A stretch of DNA of 64,000 nucleotides from a virus. The notes beneath the pieces are model-generated. The model did no database searches and was not told the DNA's origin. It worked only from the letters and a program-made list of their open reading frames with translations. The stretch covers positions 1 to 64,000 of the IMG/VR virus record IMGVR_UViG_3300046492_000458, one strand, 5' to 3'. Positions 7,967-44,649 of the stretch are shown here, piece after piece (the first letter of the stretch is position 1; each line of letters begins with the position of its first letter). Both the position numbers and the translations under genes were made by a program.

Positions 7967-8691
7967 GGCGAGCAAATTACCAGGCGATCATGTTTTGTGA
8001 GGCGCACGTGGCGCGGCCCGACCGCCTGCGCCACCCGAACGGGCCTGCCAGGCAAGGGAGATGGCTCGGGAACACTTTGCCCGCGAGGTAAAGAGCGGGG
8101 CCTCGTCATGCGCCGACCAGATTCGGTCGAATACGTGCCGGATGACGGGGTTTATCTGTCACCCACCTGAGTGATCCCTGTGCAAGCCCCTTCCCGGAGT
8201 GCATATATGCGCCTTGGGTGGGGGGTGCTGCCGGTCCCCACGGCCGGCGGCTGCACGGCCGGGGACAGCCCCTTGTGGATCGCAGCCCTCCGGGGGCGGC
8301 CCGGCCGCGCTGGGCACCCGGCCCGTACAGAAACCGGGGGAACGCATCTACCTGCGTGGGGAGTTCCCGGATTAGACTGCCGTCAACGAACGGGCATGCC
8401 CGGGAGGAACCGATCGGCCCCTCGAAGTGCCTGACCATTTGGCGCCCGCAGGGGCTGTTCCCGTATCTGGATGTAGCCTCTCCGTCACCCTCTGGCCAAA
8501 ACCGTATCGAATGCATGTCAGTAGGTGGTCAATACCCGGCAGTGTCTTACCGACCGCCTGGTATCGATGCCACAGTGACAAGTCCGAGCGTCTGGACTGG
8601 CAGCCGGACGTGCGGGGGGCCCGGGCGGAGCCGACACCGACCGGGCGTACGAGGACCCTTCCCACTTCTGCCGGAGGAGCGGAGACGCCCC
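7967..8691. other. Divergent intergenic region upstream of parA
   Basis: About 725 bases with no convincing gene. It contains the parA promoter region, a short AT-rich palindrome GCATATATGC near 8198, and an imperfect inverted repeat between about 8335 and 8371 (CCGGGGGAAC / GTTCCCGG) followed by a TAGACT -10-like hexamer near 8374. These could form a rightward regulated promoter for the gene at 8692. Nothing in it resembles an RNA gene. Confidence 0.4.
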
Positions 8692-9060
8692 ATGTCCGCA
8701 GCAGAGCCCCTTGACCCCGGGCCGGACGGTGGCCACGGCCCCGGTACCGTCATTTCGTTTCGTCAGGGCCCTTCCAAGCGCCGACGCAGGCGCAGGGAGG
8801 ACACCGTGCCGAACCCCAGGGAACCAAGCGACCCGTCAGCGTCCCCGCACCAGAATCTCGCCAACAGTGTCGAGGCGCGCTTCCTGAAGTGCGAGCGCAC
8901 TCTCACCGACCCGGATACCGCAGAGGCCTACCAGATCACGCTGGACCTGGTGAGCACCATGCTTGCGGGCGCCCACGTGAACGGGGTCGTGGACGATGAG
9001 CAGCGCCGGGAACTCCACGCCATGATTGACGGGATGAAGGCGGCGCCCGGCCTCCTGTGA
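8692..9060 (+). CDS. Hypothetical protein, 122 aa
   Basis: ATG with GGAG about 8 bases upstream. A basic patch (KRRRRRREDTVP, around residues 26-37) precedes a helical acidic domain (SVEARFLKCERTLTDPDTAEAYQITLDLVSTMLAGAHVNGVVDDEQRRELHAMIDG). The layout of basic arm plus helical bundle suggests nucleic-acid or protein binding, but no family is recognised. Confidence 0.55.
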   Translation: MSAAEPLDPGPDGGHGPGTVISFRQGPSKRRRRRREDTVPNPREPSDPSASPHQNLANSVEARFLKCERTLTDPDTAEAYQITLDLVSTMLAGAHVNGVVDDEQRRELHAMIDGMKAAPGLL

Positions 9061-9153
9061 AATTGTCTGAATATGCCGGGGGTTGTTTCATCTTCACAAG
9101 ATGACCACCCCTCAACACTGATGCAACCAGCAATGGTTCTTTCTAACGGAACG

Positions 9154-9182
9154 TTCACGTCCCCTCACTCACATGCCATAGT
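9154..9182 (+). promoter_or_regulatory. Putative promoter, TTCACG-17-CATAGT
   Basis: TTCACG and CATAGT are separated by 17 bases, with TG one base before the -10 (extended -10). The string CATGCCATAGTGGG recurs with one small change on the other strand near 27360. The predicted start is about 100 bases before the gene at 9292. A small inverted repeat CATCTT/AAGATG sits upstream at 9090-9104. Confidence 0.4.
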
Positions 9183-9291
9183 GGGGCGTCCGGAAACAGC
9201 CCGGAATCACGCTTTCCGGCCACCGGCGCGCGCCCCGACATATGTACGGACGTCCCGCGCCCCGGGGGCCGCCCGAGGGGACGGGGACACC

Positions 9292-9828
9292 ATGGGCCGC
9301 GACACAGAAGACGCCGCATCTCGGCTCCACCTGCTGGCCACCCACTACCGCGAACATCCCCAGACCGGCCCCTCCGAACGCCGCTCCCCCAGCGTCACCC
9401 CCGGCGCCCCCCTCAACCTCGGCATCGTCGACTACATGTCCCGCTGCGTCGACGAAGTCGTCCAGCATGCCCGTGACGAGGCCGCCGGCGACATCGGACC
9501 GCTCCCGGCCCGCGTCCGCGACGTCTACGCCTGGTGGGAGGAACAGACCGAGGACGCCCCCGCTGAAGTCCGCCAGCGCCGCGACATCGTGATCTACCGT
9601 CAGAGCCTCGAGCACGCCATCGCGCTCGGCGACCACGACGTCGTCTGCGCGCACCCCTGCCCCCGCTGCACGACATGGGGCCTGCAATGGCAGCCCTATA
9701 CGCGGCGGGCCATGTGCCTGAACATCGACTGCCGTGGACGCGACGGAATGTCGTCGGCATGGACCCTGGCCCGCCTGGCTACTCAGTACGTGACGCAGAA
9801 AGAAATCTTGAAAATCCGCGCAACCTGA
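9292..9828 (+). CDS. Hypothetical zinc-finger protein, 178 aa
   Basis: The ATG has only a weak GGGG-rich ribosome-binding site. The protein has a helical middle (DYMSRCVDEVVQHARDEAAG, VYAWWEEQTEDAP) and a C-terminal treble-clef-like CPRCTTWGLQW...CLNIDCRGR, around residues 123-150. A partly similar arrangement, zinc protein then small HTH protein, recurs in actinophage genomes, and the next gene here is such an HTH gene. Function unknown. Confidence 0.65.
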   Translation: MGRDTEDAASRLHLLATHYREHPQTGPSERRSPSVTPGAPLNLGIVDYMSRCVDEVVQHARDEAAGDIGPLPARVRDVYAWWEEQTEDAPAEVRQRRDIVIYRQSLEHAIALGDHDVVCAHPCPRCTTWGLQWQPYTRRAMCLNIDCRGRDGMSSAWTLARLATQYVTQKEILKIRAT

Positions 9829-9949
9829 CTGCCAGTCCGCCTGTCTACAGAACAACAACCGCACACAAAGCACACGAACGGATTCCTCGAATCCGCCCGT
9901 CATCGGCCGCCGGAGCTGCGAACTGTGGCCGTCGATCATGGGAGGCCGC

Positions 9950-10180
9950 ATGGCCATCACGTCCGCTGTCCCGAACATCGCCGGCATCCCCGATCCGGTA
10001 ACTCTCGATGAGGCTGTCGCGCTGTTCCAGCGAACCGGCCATCCGGCCCCGAAGAGCACCCTGGAGAACTGGATCCGCCAGGAGGGCATCAAGAAGGTCC
10101 GCCGCGGCAAGACCAACTACTTCTCGTACACGGCCCTGTTGAAGATCCACGCCGTGAAGATCAGAGCCCGCGACGCCTGA
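9950..10180 (+). CDS. Small MerR/excisionase-like HTH protein, 76 aa
   Basis: ATG 9950 is preceded by GGAGG at 4 bases spacing. VTLDEAVALFQRTGHPAPKSTLENWIRQEGIKKVRRGKTNYFSYTALLKIH shows a winged-HTH of the MerR/excisionase type, in which a helix pair is followed by a Arg/Lys-rich wing. Such proteins bind DNA as recombination directionality factors or small repressors. No integrase is in the window, so a regulatory role is likelier. A terminator follows at 10201. Confidence 0.65.
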   Translation: MAITSAVPNIAGIPDPVTLDEAVALFQRTGHPAPKSTLENWIRQEGIKKVRRGKTNYFSYTALLKIHAVKIRARDA

Positions 10181-10200
10181 ACGCCCCGTCCCGCCAGTGA

Positions 10201-10237: not shown

Positions 10238-10252
10238 TCATCCCCTCGCACT

Positions 10253-10289
10253 CTTGTATTGCGTACGTAATAGAAGATGGGTTACGGTG
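10253..10289 (+). promoter_or_regulatory. Conserved promoter/operator, copy 1
   Basis: The palindrome-like TATTGCGTACGTAATA is at 10258-10273. It contains the -35 TTGCGT (10260-10265); an 18-base spacer leads to -10 TACGGT (10284-10289). A 28-base block is identical in copy 2 and, on the other strand, in copies 3 and 4, while the flanks differ, which marks it as a selected regulatory element. It fires rightward into the gene run starting at 10357. Confidence 0.85.
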
Positions 10290-17076: not shown

Positions 17077-17095
17077 CGTGTGTGATCCTCCCGCA

Positions 17096-17132
17096 TCTTG
17101 TATTGCGTACGTAATAGAAGATGCCCTAGAGT
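17096..17132 (+). promoter_or_regulatory. Conserved promoter/operator, copy 2
   Basis: TATTGCGTACGTAATA at 17101-17116 with -35 TTGCGT (17103-17108), 18-base spacer and -10 TAGAGT (17127-17132). The 28-base core is identical to copy 1. It fires rightward into the gene run beginning at 17172. Confidence 0.87.
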
Positions 17133-27233: not shown

Positions 27234-27356
27234 GAAACAAAGAGCCCCGACCCAGAAGGGCCGGGGCTAACCCCGCATCGGCGGGGACAACTCGAAGTAC
27301 TGAACTGGAACACCCCCGCAGCAGCGGGGAGCAAGGCCGGTGTGTCGCGCACCAGA
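27234..27356 (-). ncRNA. Putative small RNA with two CRISPR-repeat-like hairpins
   Basis: Reading leftward: a candidate extended -10 (TGCCATAGT on the complement of 27363-27371), then a unit at 27335-27307 with stem CCCCGC/GCGGGG between TTGCT and GGTGTTCC arms, 12 linker bases, a second unit at 27294-27265 with the same stem between CGAGTTGT and TTAGCC arms, and finally a terminator AGCCCCG/CGGGGCT (27268-27243) followed by CTTTGTTT. The second unit's 3' arm overlaps the terminator stem. Stem and arms resemble type I-E CRISPR repeats of actinobacteria as I recall them. No open frame of note lies within it. RNA identity is inferred. Confidence 0.5.
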
Positions 27357-27578: not shown

Positions 27579-27803
27579 CTATCCCCAGGTGGTGTCGAGG
27601 GGCGTGATGGTCGGCAGGTCGACGGGAAGGGTGACGGGAAGGTCGACAGGCTCGCTGCCCCACGTGGTGTCGTCCGCGGTGTCGGAGGCGCCCCAGGTGG
27701 TGTCTATGCGGGGGGCGGCGACGGTGTGGGTGATGACGGCGCCGGTCGCTGCGGCGGTGGCGAGGGTGAGGCCGGCGACGATGCAGCGGATGCGCTTGCT
27801 CAC
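27579..27803 (-). CDS. Secreted small peptide precursor with three DTTWG motifs, 74 aa
   Basis: GTG with AAGGGA 8 bases upstream. The first 30 residues (basic KR.R start, then IVAGLTLATAAATGAVITHTVAA) are a Sec signal peptide with likely cleavage after VAA. The remaining 44 residues contain DTTWG three times (PRIDTTWGAS, ADDTTWGSEP and the last five residues, DTTWG). The repeats and the exact C-terminal ending recall pheromone precursors cut into several copies. I recall similar DTTW peptides near LuxR-type genes in Streptomyces but cannot confirm. It is divergent from the LuxR-type gene at 28085. Confidence 0.7.
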   Translation of the reverse strand: MSKRIRCIVAGLTLATAAATGAVITHTVAAPRIDTTWGASDTADDTTWGSEPVDLPVTLPVDLPTITPLDTTWG

Positions 27804-28084
27804 GGGCGGGTCCCTTCTTGGGTTGTCCGGGGAACGATAACGGGGCGCCGTCCCGGTTTCCTCGTGCTCCATGTCCGCTGCGAATCCCGTTGCGTGTGGC
27901 GCGCTTTCTGGCAGTAGGCGCGTGTGGTGCGTGGGGAGGACGTGGAGTACGAGCGCCGGGGGACGCCCCGCAACTAAACTGCCGTAGAGTCTTTTCATCC
28001 TCAACCTTTGTGTGCTGCGTATCTACGCATTGCGTGTAAGCGCAGTGCAGGGCCGTATTTTTGACGGGGGATCAAGCTTTGGCC
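27804..28084. promoter_or_regulatory. Divergent control region between peptide and LuxR-type genes
   Basis: 280 bases serving both directions. Leftward, TATCGT near 27829 is a -10 candidate for the peptide gene. Rightward, overlapping inverted repeats stand at 28016-28041: TGCGTATCTACGCA (28016-28029), ACGCATTGCGT (28025-28035) and a third TGCGT half-site running into GTAA. TTGCGT at 28030-28035 has the same hexamer and 18-base spacing to a weak -10 (CGTATT) as the four conserved promoters. Confidence 0.55.
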
Positions 28085-29176
28085 ATGCATTTCGGATCGA
28101 GTGATCAGGGATTCCTGTCTGCTGATGATGTTCAGGTGTTTGGCCTGATCGCGGACGGTGGAGGGGTGCCGGAGGGGTGTGCGGATTCCGTTGCCCGGTT
28201 GGCCGACCTGGGGTTTGTGAAGATCGATTCCGGGGGTGGGGACAGACCAGTCGCCCTGAATCCCGAGGACATAAAGCAGCGCACCCTCGAGGCATTGCTC
28301 ACCGAGGCCGCCGAACGGGTCGCCAAAATGCGCACCTTGCACCTGATGTCGGAACAGCTGACCAAGGAGTTCGACCGCGGCCGCTCCCTGGCCGGCGGCG
28401 GCAGCGAGTACATCGACGACGCCGCAGTAGTGAACACCCGACTCGATGACCTGCTCAACTCCGCCCGCACGGAAATCCTCGCCGCCCAGCCCGGCGGACC
28501 CCGAACCAAGGAACAGCTGGAACGGTCAGTGGACCGCGACCGGGCCGCCCTCAACCGGGGGGTGTCCCTGTGCACCCTGTACCGGGACAGCGTCCGTCAG
28601 TCCTCCGCCATGGCCTCCCATATCGGGATGATGACCGGTCACGGGGCCGAGTACCGCACGCTGGTCGCCCCGTACGAGCGGGCCATCGTCATCGACCGCC
28701 GGCACGCGTTCGTGTCGGACTACGTGGTGGAGGGCTCACCCGCGCACGCGGCCTGGCATGTGACAGACCCTGCGGCGATCGGCTTCATCGTGGGCGCGTT
28801 CATGAACGCCTGGCAGCTCGCCCAGCTGTGGCGGGGAGAACCCAGGACGGAAGTCGCGGTCGAGTGGGACGGTGATACGCGCGGCGGGCACCCGGACGTC
28901 GACACCGTGTCAGGCCCGAGTGCCGGCTTGCGGACGACACCGTTGGAGCGGGTGATCCTGCGGGACATGGTCGACGGAATCCAGCAGAGCAGGACGGCGG
29001 CCCGGCTGGGCATCAGCCTTCGAACCCTGACGGATCACGTGTCGGTGTTGAAGACAAAGTTCGGTGCGGTGTCGCCGGCGCAGCTGGGCTGCAAGTTCGC
29101 CTTGGCGCCCGACTACCACTTCGATGACAGCGCCCCATTGGCCGACGTACCCAAGACCGGCCAGCCGACGGCCTGA
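28085..29176 (+). CDS. LuxR-type transcriptional regulator with TrmB/PLD-like sensor part
   Basis: 363 aa from ATG 28085 (a TTG at 28061 is possible). Residues 15-45 (SADDVQVFGLIADGGGVPEGCADSVARLADLGFVKI) form a winged-helix-like start as in TrmB-type proteins. A long helix follows, then an EYRTLVAPYERAIVIDRRHAFVSDYVVE region like the PLD-like ligand domain. The C-terminus (TTPLERVILRDMVDGIQQSRTAARLGISLRTLTDHVSVLKTKFG, about 284-330) is a LuxR/NarL helix-turn-helix. Streptomyces has many such orphan regulators. Next to a secreted peptide and central to four outward promoters, it is the best candidate for a master switch. Confidence 0.8.
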   Translation: MHFGSSDQGFLSADDVQVFGLIADGGGVPEGCADSVARLADLGFVKIDSGGGDRPVALNPEDIKQRTLEALLTEAAERVAKMRTLHLMSEQLTKEFDRGRSLAGGGSEYIDDAAVVNTRLDDLLNSARTEILAAQPGGPRTKEQLERSVDRDRAALNRGVSLCTLYRDSVRQSSAMASHIGMMTGHGAEYRTLVAPYERAIVIDRRHAFVSDYVVEGSPAHAAWHVTDPAAIGFIVGAFMNAWQLAQLWRGEPRTEVAVEWDGDTRGGHPDVDTVSGPSAGLRTTPLERVILRDMVDGIQQSRTAARLGISLRTLTDHVSVLKTKFGAVSPAQLGCKFALAPDYHFDDSAPLADVPKTGQPTA

Positions 29177-34841: not shown

Positions 34842-34877
34842 AGTCTAGCCATCTTCTATTACGTACGCAATACAAGA
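34842..34877 (-). promoter_or_regulatory. Conserved promoter/operator, copy 3
   Basis: On the minus strand TATTGCGTACGTAATA (34857-34872) contains -35 TTGCGT (34865-34870) and lies 17 bases from -10 TAGACT (34842-34847). The 28-base core is identical to the other three copies. It fires leftward into the run 34810 to about 29181. Confidence 0.87.
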
Positions 34878-34977
34878 GATGGGGAAGGTGGCCCACGACT
34901 CGGCAGGGCCCGCCATCTACCGCCCGCACGCCTCCCGCGGGATCCTCAAGGAACCCGACAACGCGAACCGAGGGACG

Positions 34978-37410: not shown

Positions 37411-39003
37411 TCAGGCGATGTCGCCGAACAGGGCAACGCTGTACGGCTCGCTGAGACGCTGAACGCACAGCTGCGCGTAGGGCTCGTGCTGCTCGATGCC
37501 GATTGCCGTCATGTCCTCGCGGAGGGCCGCGGCCAGCGTGGTCCCGGAGCCGGCGAACGGATCCAGGACAGTCCCTCCGGGCGGGGTGACGAGCCGTACC
37601 AGCCACTGCATCAGCGCGAGCGGCTTGACTGTGGTGTGCGCGGTGCCGTCGGCGAGGCGGGGGCGCTCGGACGCGCGGGCCTTGGCCTCGTACCGGAAGA
37701 TCGGAAAGTACCTAGAGGCCCCGCCCTCGTCCTGGTGTTTGACGTATGGCACGCGGCCCTTGCACTCGCCGTAGGTGTCGGTGAAGCGAGTACCTGGTTC
37801 GTTACCTGAAAGGTTCCCGCCTGTCCGACGAATGCCGCTCTGCGCGTCCATCTCCGCGACAGGGCACCCGGACTGGCAGTGCCCGCCGTCGATGCAGTCG
37901 GGACCGTGGCCGAGAAGGACATTGGTCGGCCAACGGCCCGTGTCGGTCTCGCCTGCGGCCCGGGAGCCTTGCAGCCCGTCCCCGTAGACCTCGTTGCCAC
38001 TGCGCCGGTTGGAGACCCTACGGGGGCGAGCGCCGGACTCGACGCGGCAGCCGTCGATGTTGATCGCCCCGGTGCCGTGTTCCAGTACGTTCGCGACGGT
38101 CGTGTCGAAACCGGTGGACTTGCGGGCCAGGATGATCGGCTCGTGCGCCGGGCGAAGCTGGGTGTTCCAGCCGTGCCACTTTCGGGCCGCGTCGGTAGCG
38201 GGGGCCGTCAGGTCGTAAGCGCCGGCGCTGACGGGGGCGAGTTGCACGTCGGACTCGCCACGCACCCGGAAACCCTGGCCGATCACCTCCCGCCGGGCCC
38301 ACGCCTCACCGATCTCACCCTTGCGGCCATTCAACTCGGCCACGAGCGGGCGGATCTCGGCATCGTCGAAGCCGAGCAGATCGCGCAGGCGGTCCCACTG
38401 CTCAGGTGTCGGCACGATTGCGGCCTTACCTGCGAGCGTCGTCCAGTGGCTAGCCATGCCGTTGAAGCCGAAGGTGTCGTCGATCTGTCGGTGAGAGAGC
38501 CCGGCGGCATTGCGGGCGGCGGCCAGGAAGGCGGTCACCTGCAGGACTTGCGCCCGATCGTCGCGCCGCTTGTCGATGGCCTTGCCAATGTTCTGCCCCT
38601 TCGGCATCCCGGACCCGTAAATCCAGTGCAGGGAGTCACGGATCTCGAAGCCGGCGAGGCGAATCGCCATACCCATCAGGTCGGCAGTGCGCGGCGCCGC
38701 GAACGCCACAAGGTGGCCGCCAGGCTTGAGGACGCGCCAGCATTCATCCCACGCGGCGGGCGGCGGCACGAACCGGTCCCACGAGCGGCCCATGAAGCCA
38801 GCACCCTCGGGGACGTAGGCGCGGTCACCGGACAGCCAGGCGGCGAGGGCTTCGGCTATGACCCGCGGGTGGTGGTCGGCGAGCCCGTACGGCGGGTCGC
38901 AGACCACGGCGTCGACCGAGTTGTCGGCGAGGGTGGGGAGGATGTCGAGGCTGTCGCCGAGGTGGAGGGTGACGCCGTCGGCGCTGTAGTAGGGGTCGGG
39001 CAT
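37411..39003 (-). CDS. DNA methyltransferase with an inserted HTH-like region
   Basis: 530 aa. VDAVVCDPPYGLADHH (residues 31-46) is the catalytic DPPY motif and VLDPFAGSGTTLAAALREDMTAIGIE near the C-terminus is the AdoMet site. This gives the same order as the smaller methylase at 19703, but the protein is twice as long. LKPGGHLVAFAAPRTADLMGMAIRLAGFEIRDSLHWIYGSGMPKG follows the phage/plasmid N6-adenine or N4-cytosine methylase pattern. Between about residues 155 and 220, AARNAAGLSHRQIDDTFGFNGMASHWTTLAGKAAIVPTPEQWDRLRDLLGF looks like a helix-turn-helix inserted in the target-recognition part. No cognate nuclease is nearby. Confidence 0.88.
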   Translation of the reverse strand: MPDPYYSADGVTLHLGDSLDILPTLADNSVDAVVCDPPYGLADHHPRVIAEALAAWLSGDRAYVPEGAGFMGRSWDRFVPPPAAWDECWRVLKPGGHLVAFAAPRTADLMGMAIRLAGFEIRDSLHWIYGSGMPKGQNIGKAIDKRRDDRAQVLQVTAFLAAARNAAGLSHRQIDDTFGFNGMASHWTTLAGKAAIVPTPEQWDRLRDLLGFDDAEIRPLVAELNGRKGEIGEAWARREVIGQGFRVRGESDVQLAPVSAGAYDLTAPATDAARKWHGWNTQLRPAHEPIILARKSTGFDTTVANVLEHGTGAINIDGCRVESGARPRRVSNRRSGNEVYGDGLQGSRAAGETDTGRWPTNVLLGHGPDCIDGGHCQSGCPVAEMDAQSGIRRTGGNLSGNEPGTRFTDTYGECKGRVPYVKHQDEGGASRYFPIFRYEAKARASERPRLADGTAHTTVKPLALMQWLVRLVTPPGGTVLDPFAGSGTTLAAALREDMTAIGIEQHEPYAQLCVQRLSEPYSVALFGDIA

Positions 39004-39085
39004 CCGGGGCTCCCGCAGGTTGGTGGGTGGGCGCACCTTCACGGTGCCGTGGAATCTGTCGCGCGTTCCCCCCGCTTACGAGGGA

Positions 39086-39115
39086 GGGCCCACCCGGGGG
39101 GTGACGGGTGGGCCC
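39086..39115. terminator. Perfect inverted-repeat hairpin
   Basis: GGGCCCACCC and GGGTGGGCCC form an exact 10-bp stem with a 10-base loop between the membrane micropeptide gene and the methyltransferase. There is no T-tract. It could weaken leftward transcription from promoter copy 4 before the methyltransferase. Confidence 0.6.
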
Positions 39116-39118
39116 TGG

Positions 39119-39280
39119 CTAGAGGCGGATGGCGAGTAGGGGGCTTGCCAGTGCGGTGAGGGCGCCGGCGTCTTCGGATTGTCCTCCCATGGTGCGGATG
39201 AGGAAGTAGAGGGCGGTGAGGGCGAGGGCTTGCAGGTAGGGGGTCGGGTTCTGGTCGATGTGGGGGCGGTCGTCGGTCAC
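39119..39280 (-). CDS. Small single-pass membrane protein, 53 aa
   Basis: VTDDRPHIDQNPTPYLQALALTALYFLIRTMGGQSEDAGALTALASPLLAIRL: one membrane helix in the middle. GTG 39280 has GGAG 8 bases upstream; a GTG at 39331 is also possible. It is the first gene after promoter copy 4. Function unknown. Confidence 0.5.
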   Translation of the reverse strand: MTDDRPHIDQNPTPYLQALALTALYFLIRTMGGQSEDAGALTALASPLLAIRL

Positions 39281-39415
39281 TTCGGGGCTCCAGGAGGGCG
39301 TGGTGGGGGCTTGTCGGGGATGCTGTGGCACGCCCGTCCTGGAGTTTGGGGAGGGTCCGGGGCCGGCCGATCCTGGCCTGCTAGCTGTGTTCAGCCGGTC
39401 CCGGGTACGTGTAAG

Positions 39416-39452
39416 ACACTAGCCCATCTTCTATTACGTACGCAATACAAGA
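39416..39452 (-). promoter_or_regulatory. Conserved promoter/operator, copy 4
   Basis: On the minus strand TATTGCGTACGTAATA (39432-39447) contains -35 TTGCGT (39440-39445), followed after 18 bases by -10 TAGTGT (39416-39421). The core matches the other copies exactly. It starts the leftward run 39280 to about 35349 and lies just after the replication gene. Confidence 0.87.
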
Positions 39453-39468
39453 TGGGGTGTGGTGCCCA

Positions 39469-40608
39469 TCACGCCCGAACTTCGCGGCGCTCCCGGCTCC
39501 GCTGGCACTGGGGGCACATCTCTTCGCCCTCCTTCAAAGGGCGCCCGCACAACCCGTCGTTGCCCTGGCACTCACCCAGGCGGACCCGCGGAACGATCGT
39601 CTCGGGATCCCAGGCCGCTGGAGTCGGCGTCGGCGTGTCCTTTGGCGCCCAGTCAGCCTTGAACTGCCCGACATGCGGCACAGGACCGGACAGAGCATCC
39701 CGCAACCTGCGGGCAACGATCGCGCCCACCGTCGTACGGATCGGATCGGGTAGCGGCCGCCCTGCGATGACCTGCCGGACCTGCTCCCGTGTCCAGCCCT
39801 GCATCAACATGCCGGCCACAGCCAGCCCTTGATCCTGGAGCGTCTTTCCCGTCAGGAGGAACTCCGGCTGCTGGGCACCGATCGCCTGAAGCAGATCGAC
39901 GCCTGGATTCCTTCCGATCTGATGGGGGACCGCTGAACCGTCCGTCCCTCCGTCCTTCCCGCTGCCAGCATCTGCCGCGGAAGGAAGGACGGGTTCTAGG
40001 TCCGGTTCATAAGGACTGGTTCGGGGGTCTTCAAGTCCCCCCGTTTGGGACTGAGAGTCCCCCCGTGGAGGACTGACAGTCCCCCCGCGGCCCCGCATGG
40101 GCCCCACGTCACGAGTGGACTGAGAGTCCCCCCGTTCCTCGGGCGGCTCGGCGGCGACGGCTTCGACCTCTTCAACCTGCGCCGTGGAGCGCTTCCTGCC
40201 CTTGTCGCTGCGGGTCTTCTTGGCTGGCGGAGGTGCGATCGGGGGACGGTTCTCGGGGGTCAGAGGCGTCTTGCCCCTTTCCCTCCGCTCCTTGTTGATC
40301 CGCTCGATGTTCGGGAACCAGTCGTACGGGATCAGCAGGTCCCACACGGGCGGCCGGCGGTCGGCACGGATGTACTCAGCCGCCTTCGGATCCCCAGGGC
40401 CGATCAACTTGCGTGCAGCGAGACCGGTCAGCGTGCGCTGGACGGTCTTTGGGTCCACAGTCGTCCGCTTCGCCACCGTTGAGCGGGCAGGGAAGGCGGC
40501 ACAGCCATCCGAATCGGCCTTCTCGGCCAACATGACCAGGATGGCGAACTCGTTGACGTTGGCGATCGGCGCGTCGCTCGTAGCCCAGAGGACAGCTTCG
40601 AAACTCAT
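39469..40608 (-). CDS. O-like replication protein with winged-helix domain
   Basis: 379 aa. Residues 1-105 (SFEAVLWATSDAPIANVNEFAILVMLAEKADSDGCAAFPARSTVAKRTTVDPKTVQRTLTGLAARKLIGPG) form a winged helix like that of phage O and plasmid replication proteins. The middle 100 residues are charged and disordered, and the C-terminal part has GLAVAGMLMQGWTREQVRQVIAGRPLPDPIRTTVGAIVARRLRDAL (DnaD-like or helicase-loader-binding helices) and a CxxC...C zinc ribbon (CGRPLKEGEEMCPQCQRSRE). The iterons at 40034-40134 lie within the disordered part, as in lambda O. An initiator role is therefore probable. Confidence 0.7.
   Translation of the reverse strand: MSFEAVLWATSDAPIANVNEFAILVMLAEKADSDGCAAFPARSTVAKRTTVDPKTVQRTLTGLAARKLIGPGDPKAAEYIRADRRPPVWDLLIPYDWFPNIERINKERRERGKTPLTPENRPPIAPPPAKKTRSDKGRKRSTAQVEEVEAVAAEPPEERGDSQSTRDVGPMRGRGGTVSPPRGDSQSQTGGLEDPRTSPYEPDLEPVLPSAADAGSGKDGGTDGSAVPHQIGRNPGVDLLQAIGAQQPEFLLTGKTLQDQGLAVAGMLMQGWTREQVRQVIAGRPLPDPIRTTVGAIVARRLRDALSGPVPHVGQFKADWAPKDTPTPTPAAWDPETIVPRVRLGECQGNDGLCGRPLKEGEEMCPQCQRSRERREVRA
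40034..40134. repeat. Iterons inside the replication gene, putative origin
   Basis: GGACTGAGAGTCCCCCCG occurs at 40048-40065 and 40117-40134, as GGACTGACAGTCCCCCCG at 40070-40087, and in part as AGTCCCCCCG at 40034-40043. Each full copy contains the inverted pair GGACT/AGTCC. The copies are read in all three frames of the enclosing protein, so the DNA sequence and not the amino acids is being conserved. Spacings are 22 and 47 bases. This resembles the lambda origin, where iterons sit inside gene O. Confidence 0.75.
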
Positions 40609-40845
40609 CAGAAGCCTCCAGCCGTGCGAGTGATCACGCTGAGGGTACTTGCGGGCGATGTGCCAACTGCGGGTAGTCTCGACACCGAGATGCCTACTCT
40701 CACGTGGTTGCTCTCACTGACCCAGCGGGCTGCGATCCGCTGGTCGAACTTGGACGGCCGGTATGAGGCGCTGCGACCTCTAGCCGGCCGTTCGTGTATC
40801 CGGGGCGATGAGGCTGCGATCTCAAAGCCCGGGTGACCGGTGTTG

Positions 40846-41106
40846 CTACTTGCGGCCGCGTCCGCCGCGGCGAGGGCCGTCCTTGAACATCTCGATGAAG
40901 ACGCCGGTCTCCATCGTTCGCGTCTTCCCGGCCATCACGTACGGCATCTGGCCTGGCCCGTCGCCGAATCTCCACCAGTCGGGGTTCGCGCGGGCGAGGT
41001 ATCTGAGTCCGTCGGGGGTGATGCTGTCGACCAGTTTCAGTTCCACAAGCAGCGCGGCGCCGGTTGTGAACGTGACGAACGGGGGCAGGTCGTCTTTCAT
41101 CGGCAT
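40846..41106 (-). CDS. Small basic hypothetical protein, 86 aa
   Basis: ATG 41106 (another at 41100). MPMKDDLPPFVTFTTGAALLVELKLVDSITPDGLRYLARANPDWWRFGDG, then a basic end (FKDGPRRGGRGRK). The LVDSITPDGLRYLARANPDWWRFGDG stretch could be a small winged-helix. It lies between the replication gene and the GntR gene and may regulate or assist replication. A 14-bp palindrome CCGGGTTAACCCGG (41237-41250) is in its upstream region. Confidence 0.5.
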   Translation of the reverse strand: MPMKDDLPPFVTFTTGAALLVELKLVDSITPDGLRYLARANPDWWRFGDGPGQMPYVMAGKTRTMETGVFIEMFKDGPRRGGRGRK

Positions 41107-41303: not shown

Positions 41304-42032
41304 TTACTCGTCGTCCGCTTGCCATAGGCCGACGGAATAGATGTCCTCCCAGTACTCCAACGGCCCATCCTCGTCGTGGAACACGTTCACCAGGACGAGA
41401 ACAGGTACGGGAACGTCCTCAGGTACTCGGACTTCCAGAAGGTCCAGCTCGTTCTGGGAGGCGAATCGAGCGGTTCGCCGCTCCGGCGACTTGGTGACCG
41501 TGCGCCCGGTCCGCTCCGTGTAGATCTCCTGCCAGAACCGGCCCATCGGCTCGGTGCTCAGCAGCTCCGGGACAGCGCTCAGCGCCCGGACATGGATGCA
41601 GGACAAGGCTGCGATCGTAGGAGTGTTGTCCCGCACGAATACCCGGGTGCGCAGCACGATCTCGTCGTGCAGATCGATCTCGAGCGCGTCCGCGACTGCC
41701 GCGTCTGCTGACCGGAGAGCTGCGGTGTGCTTGATGGACTTCTCCTTGTAGCCGTACGGGTCACCCGTGCGGCCAATCCTCTTCAGGCGTGCGGCGGCCG
41801 TCGTGGCGACGCGGGGGCGTTCGGCCACCACCGTGCCGACGCCGGGCTTGGCCACGGTCAAGCGTTCTGCCTTCAGGAGTTGGAACGCCCGGTTCGCCGT
41901 GGCGATCGCGACATCGAACTCCTCGCAGACCCTGTTCATGGACGGCATCTTGTCGCCAGGGGTGAGCGTGCCGTCCGCGATGAGCCGTCGGTAGTGGGTG
42001 GCGATCTCGGCATATCCAGCCTTGCCGCTCAT
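41304..42032 (-). CDS. GntR/HutC-family repressor (KorSA/TraR-like)
   Basis: 242 aa. Residues 1-70 (YAEIATHYRRLIADGTLTPGDKMPSMNRVCEEFDVAIATANRAFQLLKAERLTVAKPGVGTVV) are a GntR winged helix; residues 85-240 form the HutC/UTRA ligand-binding domain (IVLRTRVFVRDNTPTIAALSCIHV ... GRFWQEIYTERTGRTVTKSPERRTARFASQNELDLLEV). In Streptomyces conjugative elements such proteins (KorSA, TraR, KorA) repress transfer and replication genes. Its own promoter has a tight inverted repeat, suggesting autoregulation. Confidence 0.88.
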   Translation of the reverse strand: MSGKAGYAEIATHYRRLIADGTLTPGDKMPSMNRVCEEFDVAIATANRAFQLLKAERLTVAKPGVGTVVAERPRVATTAAARLKRIGRTGDPYGYKEKSIKHTAALRSADAAVADALEIDLHDEIVLRTRVFVRDNTPTIAALSCIHVRALSAVPELLSTEPMGRFWQEIYTERTGRTVTKSPERRTARFASQNELDLLEVRVPEDVPVPVLVLVNVFHDEDGPLEYWEDIYSVGLWQADDE

Positions 42033-42822: not shown

Positions 42823-43229
42823 TGGCTGACCGTGACTACACGAACGAAGAGATGCGGCTGCTGGAGATGTACCACCAGCTCATCGCCCTCAGCGACGACA
42901 AGGACGTGGCGGGCAGGTTCATCCTCCTCGGCACCAACGGGGCGATCGTCGCGCACGGTTCCCTCGCCGCCCGCGACATCGAGGCCGCCACTCTCGCGCT
43001 CGCCGCGCTCAACGAGGCGAAGGCCGCCACGGAGGAGTCCACCGGACACGCCGTGTACGCCTCCCTCCCGAAGGTGCCGATCGACCAGGACCTCGAGAAC
43101 GAGCTTGAGGAGTACTGCATCAGCCTCGACACCGACCACCTGTTCGGCTTGGCCGCGCAGGACCAGGCCGCCGCGGTCGCCGAGTTCGACCAGATCACCA
43201 GCGATGTCGAAGGCGACGGGACCCTGTGA
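42822..43229 (+). CDS. Hypothetical protein, 135 aa
   Basis: ATG 42822 overlaps the previous stop (a GTG lies one codon earlier). NEEMRLLEMYHQLIALSDDKDVAGRFILLGTNGAIVAHGSLAARDIEAATLALAALNEAK is alpha/beta; the C-terminus is helical and acidic (DLENELEEYCISLDTDHLFGLAAQDQAAAVAEFDQI). Unknown family, coupled on both sides. Confidence 0.6.
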   Translation: MADRDYTNEEMRLLEMYHQLIALSDDKDVAGRFILLGTNGAIVAHGSLAARDIEAATLALAALNEAKAATEESTGHAVYASLPKVPIDQDLENELEEYCISLDTDHLFGLAAQDQAAAVAEFDQITSDVEGDGTL

Positions 43230-43645
43230 TGGCCGCGCACCCGGGCACGCACGTGCACCCCGCGGACAACGCGGTCCCGCCCCTGAACGACGACCTCGCC
43301 GGCCTCCTCGACGACCTGGTCGGTTTCCACCGCGGGCTGGACCTCATCGCCGACGGCGTACGGCTCCTGGCGCTGGACCGGCTGACGATCCCCCAGACGC
43401 AGACCGTCGTCACCATGCTCGCCGGTTCCACCGACCCGGCCGGCACGCAGATCGACGTGGCCGCCCTTATCGCCGCCCTCGTCGCCCGGCTCCTCAACGC
43501 CGACGAGAACCCGGCCCTCCGCACCCTCCCCGCCGACACCCAGGACCAGGCCCGCACCGCGGGCGCCGACTTTGCCGACCACGACGCCTACATCACCCCC
43601 CGCTCTGACATCGCCAAGACCGTCTACGACCTCAACCCGATCTGA
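43229..43645 (+). CDS. Hypothetical protein, 138 aa
   Basis: ATG overlapping the previous stop. LNDDLAGLLDDLVGFHRGLDLIADGVRLLALDRLTIPQTQTVVTMLAG and DVAALIAALVARLLNADENPALRTLPADTQDQA are helical. The end YITPRSDIAKTVYDLNPI is a short strand-helix. No family recognised. Confidence 0.58.
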   Translation: MAAHPGTHVHPADNAVPPLNDDLAGLLDDLVGFHRGLDLIADGVRLLALDRLTIPQTQTVVTMLAGSTDPAGTQIDVAALIAALVARLLNADENPALRTLPADTQDQARTAGADFADHDAYITPRSDIAKTVYDLNPI

Positions 43646-43738
43646 CCGCGCCCGGTGCCGGGTCAGCCACCACGGTGGCCCGGTGCCGAGTACGGCCAGC
43701 ACCATCCCGTCCCGCACCACCGGAAGGAGCACCACCCC

Positions 43739-43864
43739 ATGAAGAAGCAGCTCATCCGCCTGTGGCACCTGGTCGCGAACTCCGGCCAGTGCAACGTCTG
43801 CTCCGGCTGGTTCGACAACTGGCCCGGCGGCACCTGCGCCGCCTGCATCAACAACGGCTACTGA
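43739..43864 (+). CDS. Small zinc-knuckle protein, 41 aa
   Basis: ATG with GGAAGGAG about 9 bases upstream. MKKQLIRLWHLVANSGQCNVCSGWFDNWPGGTCAACINNGY: basic helix followed by CxxC...CxxC. Translation is well supported by the ribosome-binding site. Confidence 0.55.
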   Translation: MKKQLIRLWHLVANSGQCNVCSGWFDNWPGGTCAACINNGY

Positions 43865-43907
43865 CCCACCCCGACCACCCGCCTGCACCACCCGGAAGGA
43901 GCCCGCC

Positions 43908-44063
43908 ATGGCCGCCACCACCGACCAGACGACCACCACCACCGACGAGCCGCTGAACGGCCCCAAGTTCCGTGCCACCCACGGTGCAGAGGAGTGGAGC
44001 CCCGCCGAGATCGACGCCCAGCAGATCCTCGCCGAACTCGCCGCCTACGCCCCCGCCGCCTGA
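43908..44063 (+). CDS. Small hypothetical protein, 51 aa
   Basis: ATG with GGAAGGAG about 7 bases upstream. Thr-rich N-terminus (TTDQTTTTTDEP), then KFRATHGAEEWSPAEIDAQQILAELAAYAPAA. Unknown. One of a series of very small genes with the same leader pattern of CC.GGAAGGA. Confidence 0.5.
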   Translation: MAATTDQTTTTTDEPLNGPKFRATHGAEEWSPAEIDAQQILAELAAYAPAA

Positions 44064-44087
44064 CCACCGGAAGGACACCCGTACCCC

Positions 44088-44297
44088 ATGGCCAACGACC
44101 ACGTCCGCAACGCGACCCTCGCCCTCATCCCCCGCGACGGCTTCAACCGGCCCAGCGCCGGCCAGCTCCACGAGGCCGAAGTCCACGCCGCTCTCGCCAA
44201 GGCCGTCGAGCTGGGCCGGATCGCCGACGCGCTCGAGTCCCTCGCCGCCACCACCGCACTCGCGGACCTCGAGCCCGCCATCCACCACAGCCACTGA
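44088..44297 (+). CDS. Small hypothetical protein, 69 aa
   Basis: ATG with GGAAGGA about 9 bases upstream. RNATLALIPRDGFNRPSAGQLHEAEVHAALAKAVELGRIADALESLAATTALADLEPAIHH: helical. Family unknown. Confidence 0.5.
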   Translation: MANDHVRNATLALIPRDGFNRPSAGQLHEAEVHAALAKAVELGRIADALESLAATTALADLEPAIHHSH

Positions 44298-44340
44298 CCC
44301 CAGCCCATCCGCCCGAACCCACCGGAAGGACATCGATCCC

Positions 44341-44649
44341 GTGCTCGCCACCCTCTTCGCCCGCCGCCCCCAGCAGGACACCCCGACCCCCGAGACCCCC
44401 GCCACGGACACCGGCGCCGCAGAGACCAACCAGAACCAGCAGCCGGACCGTCCCGAGAACCTGCAGATCAGGTTCCAGACGGTCGGCGGATCCTACGTCG
44501 ACGTCACCGGAACCGAGTACCTCCAGGACAACCGGTGGCAGTGCCACGGCTGCAAAGCCACCTCGGAATTCCCCCAGCATGACTGGCTCAGCTTCATGCG
44601 CAGCAAGGCGAACAAGCACGCCAACGAGTGCCGCGCCATCCACCTCTGA
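44341..44649 (+). CDS. Small zinc-finger protein, 102 aa
   Basis: GTG with GGAAGGA about 11 bases upstream. A disordered Pro/Thr/Gln stretch, then a beta segment (LQIRFQTVGGSYVDVTGTEYLQDNRWQCHGCKATSEFPQHDWLSFMRSKANKHANECRAIHL) containing C..C...H...H...C, a likely zinc site. In Streptomyces transfer clusters such proteins occur beside DUF2637 genes; role unknown. Confidence 0.6.
   Translation: MLATLFARRPQQDTPTPETPATDTGAAETNQNQQPDRPENLQIRFQTVGGSYVDVTGTEYLQDNRWQCHGCKATSEFPQHDWLSFMRSKANKHANECRAIHL

Follow-up and report, generated by a model that had tools for sequence, protein, structure and literature searches.

A divergent small-precursor and TrmB/LuxR-type regulator gene pair of Streptomyces phage-plasmids as a putative arbitrium-like peptide-signalling locus

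The leader of a LuxR-type regulator gene in a viral DNA record carries TGCG half-sites that are also found at four outward-facing promoters of the same element, which raises the question of what this regulator controls and of what it responds to. The DNA analyzed, referred to here as the window, comprises 64,000 bases out of a 65,644-base IMG/VR virus record. A first-pass annotation had predicted, from the half-sites and an apparently common promoter geometry, that the protein regulates its own gene as well as the four operons. We now consider, with a probability of about two in three, that the locus is an arbitrium-like divergent pair of peptide-signal and receptor genes of Streptomyces phage-plasmids, the receptor having an unrelated fold according to sequence comparison and a structure model. 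In this reading the regulator seems to serve as receptor for a short peptide that is secreted and is the product of the neighbouring gene.

Close kin of the window are a 93-kb Streptomyces olivochromogenes record (G001) and a group of 88-94-kb Streptomyces plasmids. In one of these plasmid relatives, inspected over its full length, genes for capsid, terminase, and tape measure occur together with ParA/ParB genes, and from this gene content we take the group to be phage-plasmids; excerpts of PMC11302927 describe a prophage-like sequence in pSAM1 of S. ambofaciens, a member of the group. Palindromes of the form GTATACCGCGGTATAC occur in three to four copies in G001 (8546-10197), W01 (38062-40906), and W07 (42902-44530), and are probable parS sites, lying in W01 beside the ParA/ParB genes. 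Searching for related loci with the single regulator protein as query gave no relative, and searching with the alignment gave 19. Relatives of the regulator (E of 1e-10 or better) are present at 1 to 13 per genome in 60 of 61 sampled Streptomyces genomes. The receptor loci compared here number 54 and represent 48 distinct receptors; the receptor tree was built without L067, the frame of which is interrupted, and without six duplicates.

All of the bases quoted by the first-pass annotation upstream of the regulator gene are present, with TGCGTATCTACGCA at 28016-28029, ATTGCGTGTAA at 28029-28039, and a TTGCGT hexamer (28030-28035) followed after 18 bases by CGTATT (28054-28059). The half-sites are real, but as parts of a 29-bp tandem dyad, TGCG-N6-CGCA-N-TGCG-N6-CGCA, which emerged from the alignment of homologous upstream regions (Table 1), and the promoter role given to them does not hold. 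TTGCGT occurs 17 times in the window, its spacing to a weak -10 is no more than chance would give, and CGTATT has three of six bases in common with TATAAT. Among 36 homologous leaders (duplicates and L152-L156 were left out) TTGCGT stands at the homologous place in just three, those of the window, L034, and L146, and the best putative -10 at the place of CGTATT again agrees with TATAAT in three of six bases; this promoter was therefore rejected as not conserved. A TANNNT hexamer, by contrast, precedes the dyads by 31-32 or 41-43 bases in all 36 leaders, and because of its position the half-sites most likely lie within the transcribed leader and not in the promoter. Upstream of it, GGGGGACGCCCC is present in every one of 18 aligned phage-plasmid-type sequences. 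Across 18 phage-plasmid-type loci conservation is strong throughout the intergenic region 27820-27990 (GGGGCG.C, GCTGCGA, CTGGCAG, and GGGGGACGCCCC), although most of their proteins are only 38-52% identical to those of the window; used as a DNA query against phage records, the intergenic region gave no matches. As for the start of the regulator, 28061 (TTG) and 28085 (ATG) are alternatives, and the TTG at 28079 is most likely since TTGGCC following GGGGGA is conserved in the alignment of 18 leaders.

Table 1. Features of the locus and of the four outward promoters, in window coordinates.
Feature	Position	Strand	Basis
Small secreted-precursor-like protein, proposed pro-pheromone	27579-27803	-	74 aa, GTG start, AAGGGA ribosome site
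C-terminal DTTWG, proposed mature signal (extent inferred)	27582-27596	-	Only window ORF ending D..W[GN]
Internal DTTWG repeat 1	27690-27704	-	Precursor sequence
Internal DTTWG repeat 2	27657-27671	-	Precursor sequence
GCGCCGGGGGACGCCCC, conserved palindromic element over expected -35 region	27953-27969	+	GGGGGACGCCCC in 18/18 aligned sequences
Alternative -10, TAAACT	27975-27980	+	TANNNT, same 36-locus comparison
Probable -10 of regulator gene, TAGAGT	27985-27990	+	TANNNT upstream of dyads, 36/36 loci
Tandem dyad TGCGTATCTACGCA-T-TGCGTGTAAGCGCA, proposed autoregulatory operator in leader	28016-28044	+	26/26 homologues and window
TrmB/LuxR-type regulator, proposed peptide receptor	28079-29176	+	Start TTG 28079 preferred
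Four-promoter palindrome, copy 1	10250-10279	+	ATTGCGTACGTAA exact; not assigned to regulator
Four-promoter palindrome, copy 2	17094-17123	+	ATTGCGTACGTAA exact; dyad model score 0.4
Four-promoter palindrome, copy 3	34850-34879	-	ATTGCGTACGTAA exact
Four-promoter palindrome, copy 4	39425-39454	-	ATTGCGTACGTAA exact

Alignment of homologous upstream regions, a check that had been suggested together with the original prediction, showed the dyad at the matching place in all of the 26 homologues first examined; the dyads of g072 and CP134214, which had been misplaced by the motif finder, were set to the homologous place by alignment. The dyad also precedes linear-plasmid and chromosomal homologues whose upstream regions otherwise differ, and it accompanies the regulator gene in phage-plasmids, linear plasmids, and chromosomes, where the divergent genes differ. 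A model of the tandem dyad built from phage-plasmid-type leaders, with nine loci of linear-plasmid or chromosomal type left out, gave a single strong site per element in 11 of 11 elements, in every case in the regulator leader and on the coding strand (scores 27.5 to 40.1; next unrelated site at most 13.6), and no second target site in any of them. No clear tandem dyad was seen at the eight distant homologues L157-L164. Since the dyad is the sole such site in 11 elements and precedes distant chromosomal homologues, we infer that the regulator gene is likely to be autoregulated through the predicted operator, in support of this part of the earlier prediction. Dyads are, as is generally known, used by host regulators too, so that the receptor gene might simply be under host control; this is quite unlikely for a dyad that is single in each element and goes with one gene family on plasmids and chromosomes although the neighbouring genes vary.

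A dyad downstream of the probable start site might alternatively act as RNA, forming two small leader hairpins that control translation or termination instead of a protein operator. The inner pairs of box 1 do fit RNA pairing in 28 of 32 distinct motifs, many as G-U, but at position 5 of the dyad halves RNA pairing drops to only 22/32 in box 2, whereas both bases are purines or both are pyrimidines in 28/32 motifs for box 1 and in 30/32 for box 2. The outer GC bases are near invariant and do not covary, and there was no Rfam match up to an E of 5. Purine/pyrimidine symmetry in excess of RNA pairing favours two DNA sites for protein dimers over two RNA hairpins; a reading of the dyads as nothing but hairpins was rejected on the position-5 counts, and an RNA element of any kind is unlikely. 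Operator class pairs with the clade of the recognition helix, but on supported branches of the tree this amounts to one independent pair, in effect a single event, and the match, considered also as a sign of independent co-evolution of HTH and operator class, is weak evidence.

The four outward promoters are a different matter. ATTGCGTACGTAA occurs there exactly four times in the window (10258 and 17102 on the plus strand, 34859 and 39434 on the minus strand), and the palindrome is close to 30 bp with CGTACG in its centre. Against the tandem-dyad model the four promoters score -0.5, 0.4, -6.3, and -5.6, compared to 20 to 40 for true leaders, and the conserved tandem-dyad site is not present at any of them. 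A single LuxR-type protein acting through common half-sites, as repressor or activator, on its own gene as well as on the four operons is suggested by the TGCG found in both types of site and by the presence of the regulator in every operator-bearing element examined that is complete or nearly so (window, G001, G003, W02, and W03). TGCG is however the sole likeness between them, with an inner spacing of 6 in the dyad as opposed to 2 in the operators. The palindrome is present in four copies in both the window and G001, in two exact copies plus three variants in G003, as five variants in W02, two in W03, and two in the fragment G002, while W10 has one asymmetric match, which is probably due to chance; allowing up to 3 mismatches it is absent from W01, W04-W09, and W11, i.e., from 8 of the 13 other LuxR-carrying records searched. 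Moreover, near-identical operators occur alongside receptors of two clades with different recognition helices (window, G001, and W03 versus G003 and W02). The first-pass annotation had named homologous operators without the regulator as evidence against its proposal; no such case was found among G001, G003, W02, and W03, and the 31.8-kb fragment G002 has the operators and lacks the regulator. Given the low dyad scores and the palindrome-free carriers, control of the four promoters by this regulator was rejected and common control of gene and operons is highly improbable; on the sequence comparisons the four promoters are unlikely to be under this regulator and would be run by a different protein. 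The product of 41304-42032, a GntR/UTRA-family regulator that is absent from the closest relative G001, was considered for this role and, with no match in the operator-bearing G001, G002, and G003 (possibly fragmentary records), is excluded by this comparison as their general regulator. A comparison of 77 genes, in which G003 was covered in part, revealed no clear case of a gene confined to operator-bearing elements. The gene at 9950-10180, just upstream of palindrome copy 1, encodes a small HTH-like protein, is present in all compared elements, and is a candidate regulator of the four promoters.

For the regulator protein, Pfam matches to GerE (E 3.9e-4) and TrmB (E 9e-3; 15.7 bits with a cut-off of 22.2) both fall under the Pfam cut-offs, and at E up to 0.01 these were the only ones, with no autoinducer-binding domain among them. 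An AlphaFold2 model based on an alignment of 20 sequences (pLDDT 78, pTM 0.46; a model without alignment, pLDDT 40, was set aside) is composed of a winged helix (residues 15-59), a long helix (62-105), a PLD-like domain (109-247), and a LuxR-type HTH (288-341). The best Foldseek matches were to TrmBL2 (5bpi_D, E 3.1e-11) and to Nuc of the PLD family (1byr, E 9.9e-7). With VIA-align, 5box_A of the TrmB/TrmBL2 family was matched over 231 residues at Z 16.3 with an rmsd of 10.8, the domains being placed differently, and NucT (6ehi_B) over 135 residues at Z 16.1 with an rmsd of 3.0; LuxR-type HTH domains scored about 12 (4hye_A, Z 12.1 over 66 residues, rmsd 1.2; phage VqmA, 7dwm_B, 11.5). On this model the regulator is a TrmB/PLD-like fold joined to a LuxR-type HTH. 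PLD enzymes have the motif HxKxxxxD, and since its place in the regulator alignment mostly reads F/Y-E-R-x4-D the PLD-like domain looks catalytically dead.

The gene divergent from the regulator encodes a small protein with a hydrophobic N-terminal stretch, from which alone secretion was judged, and with three copies of DTTWG, one of them at the extreme C-terminus; it has no match in Pfam, PHROGs, or NCBIfam. Among the 684 ORFs of the window it is the only one ending in D..W[GN], and in all of 11 elements (684-995 ORFs each) there is exactly one such ORF, and in every case it is the gene oriented divergently to that of the receptor. A divergent ORF of D-x-x-W-(G/N) type is present at 47 of the 54 receptor loci (41 of 48 distinct receptors, one being doubtful: the match at L162 looks like chance). 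It is missing at L077, L079, L081, L082, L083, L161, and L154, of which L161 has a transposase upstream and the record of L154 is without upstream DNA. Counted by ORF, such endings are found in 47 of 315 divergent ORFs compared to 1/410, 0/381, and 0/359 in the other three flank directions (1/1,150). The endings seen are DTTWG, DTAWG, DTGWG, DSTWG, DTWWG, DTHWG, DVGWG, DTSWG, DTGWN, DPGWG, DSAWG, DSDWG, DIQW, and DSAWGC; pSAM1 of S. ambofaciens ATCC 23877 belongs to the DTAWG type. Internal repeats match their own C-terminus at position 3 in 43 of 47 cases, with a mean of 12.5 and a maximum of 24 after shuffling, which keeps composition and not the relatedness of the sequences. Mapping on the receptor tree gave at least 11 changes at precursor position 3 and at least eight at position 2, with D and W constant, and W at position 3 arose in both main receptor clades. 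Of 30 further loci of Streptomyces genomes, searched under a less strict rule ([DNE]..W followed by at most 3 residues), 13 had a divergent D-x-x-W-tailed ORF, one of these being the G001 element (L165), while such ORFs were found in the same-strand upstream flank at 1/30 and downstream at 2/30. In several Streptomyces genomes, chromosomal or other genomic relatives (L167-L187) have such divergent D-x-x-W-tailed small proteins as well. Also in the window, at 27262-27330, are two short GC-rich hairpins, CCCCGCATCGGCGGGG and CCCCGCAGCAGCGGGG, which resemble the repeat stems of type I-E CRISPR and are too close together for an array.

The precursor need not be a signal. A small, secreted-like protein with no uptake gene adjoining it in annotated neighbourhoods would also suit a secreted effector (an antimicrobial, structural, or modified peptide) encoded with its regulator, but the exact C-terminal placement, the matching repeats, and the variation at two inner residues only resemble pro-pheromones. 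No conserved co-transcribed gene was found downstream of the precursor, which indicates that it has no dedicated maturation partner, and we consider an effector rather unlikely.

In the proposed peptide-signal and receptor pair, the precursor, with its hydrophobic N-terminus and C-terminal D-x-x-W-G, encoded back to back with the TrmB-like/LuxR-HTH receptor, would be exported and trimmed to a peptide of five to six residues, which would be taken up again and bind the PLD-like domain of the receptor. The peptide-bound receptor, as a dimer or a pair of dimers, would then bind more or less tightly to the two dyads, which lie downstream of its transcription start, and would in this way regulate its own gene and perhaps that of the divergent precursor. 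As the element has only one dyad site, the output is probably the receptor's own locus, a host gene, or a protein contact; AimR of arbitrium, likewise, has one locus as its main site of action. Each step of the pathway, from secretion and processing through uptake to the binding of peptide and operator, is inferred from sequence, as is the output of the pair. In the temperate Streptomyces phage Chymera (L157, gp29-gp30) a receptor and a DPGWG precursor lie beside integrase and immunity repressor genes, which makes a role in lysis/lysogeny plausible; a precursor matching that of Chymera is also found in a Streptomyces genome at L172. More tentatively, a large Streptomyces family of TrmB-PLD-LuxR receptors, with their own D-x-x-W-G pro-pheromones, might constitute a peptide language common to chromosomes, plasmids, phage-plasmids, and phages, in which private variants of mobile elements (DTTWG, DTAWG, DTHWG, DTWWG, DPGWG, and others) would sense the number of carrier neighbours and set lysis/lysogeny or copy state.

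It is chiefly in Firmicutes that short secreted peptides are known to signal through a cytoplasmic receptor. In the open PMC literature (paywalled papers and preprints were outside the scope) neither the pair, nor the pentapeptides, nor a peptide pheromone system of Streptomyces phage-plasmids was found; as a means of communication between phages, the pair would be of a kind so far undescribed in Streptomyces. If this is confirmed, peptide signals would gain a receptor of a new fold, phage-plasmids of actinobacteria might possess an arbitrium-like switch, and the receptor family present in nearly every Streptomyces genome sampled would have a likely function. With TrmB and TrmBL2 of Pyrococcus the receptor shares the winged helix, the coiled coil, and the TrmB/PLD-like domain, and it differs in its extra C-terminal LuxR-type HTH and in a proposed ligand that is a peptide and not a sugar. 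To the LuxR-type quorum regulators (LasR, RhlR, SdiA, VqmA) the likeness is limited to the C-terminal HTH domain; in place of the autoinducer-binding domain of an AHL receptor, its N-terminal part matches TrmB folds. In the arbitrium system of Bacillus phages (AimR-AimP-AimX), as given in excerpts of PMC6458997, a phage-borne secreted peptide and its receptor set lysis/lysogeny; here the receptor fold is unrelated, no aimX counterpart was identified, and the system is known from sequence, its role in lysis/lysogeny being putative. According to excerpts of PMC9765709, RRNPPA systems (Rap, Rgg, NprR, PlcR, PrgX, AimR) have the pheromone at the C-terminus of a propeptide, in some of them in several copies, and are abundant on phages, plasmids, and phage-plasmids. 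As in those systems (PMC9765709), the gene for a small propeptide of secreted type, here the divergent D-x-x-W-G ORF with its predicted secretion, adjoins that of a cytoplasmic DNA-binding receptor. The differences are the host, which is Streptomyces and not a member of the Firmicutes, the D-x-x-W-G signal, and a TrmB/PLD-like and LuxR-HTH receptor whose modelled alpha/beta PLD-like domain takes the place of the TPR or TPR-like domain. Not being a TPR protein, the receptor would work like RRNPPA receptors without being a member of their family.
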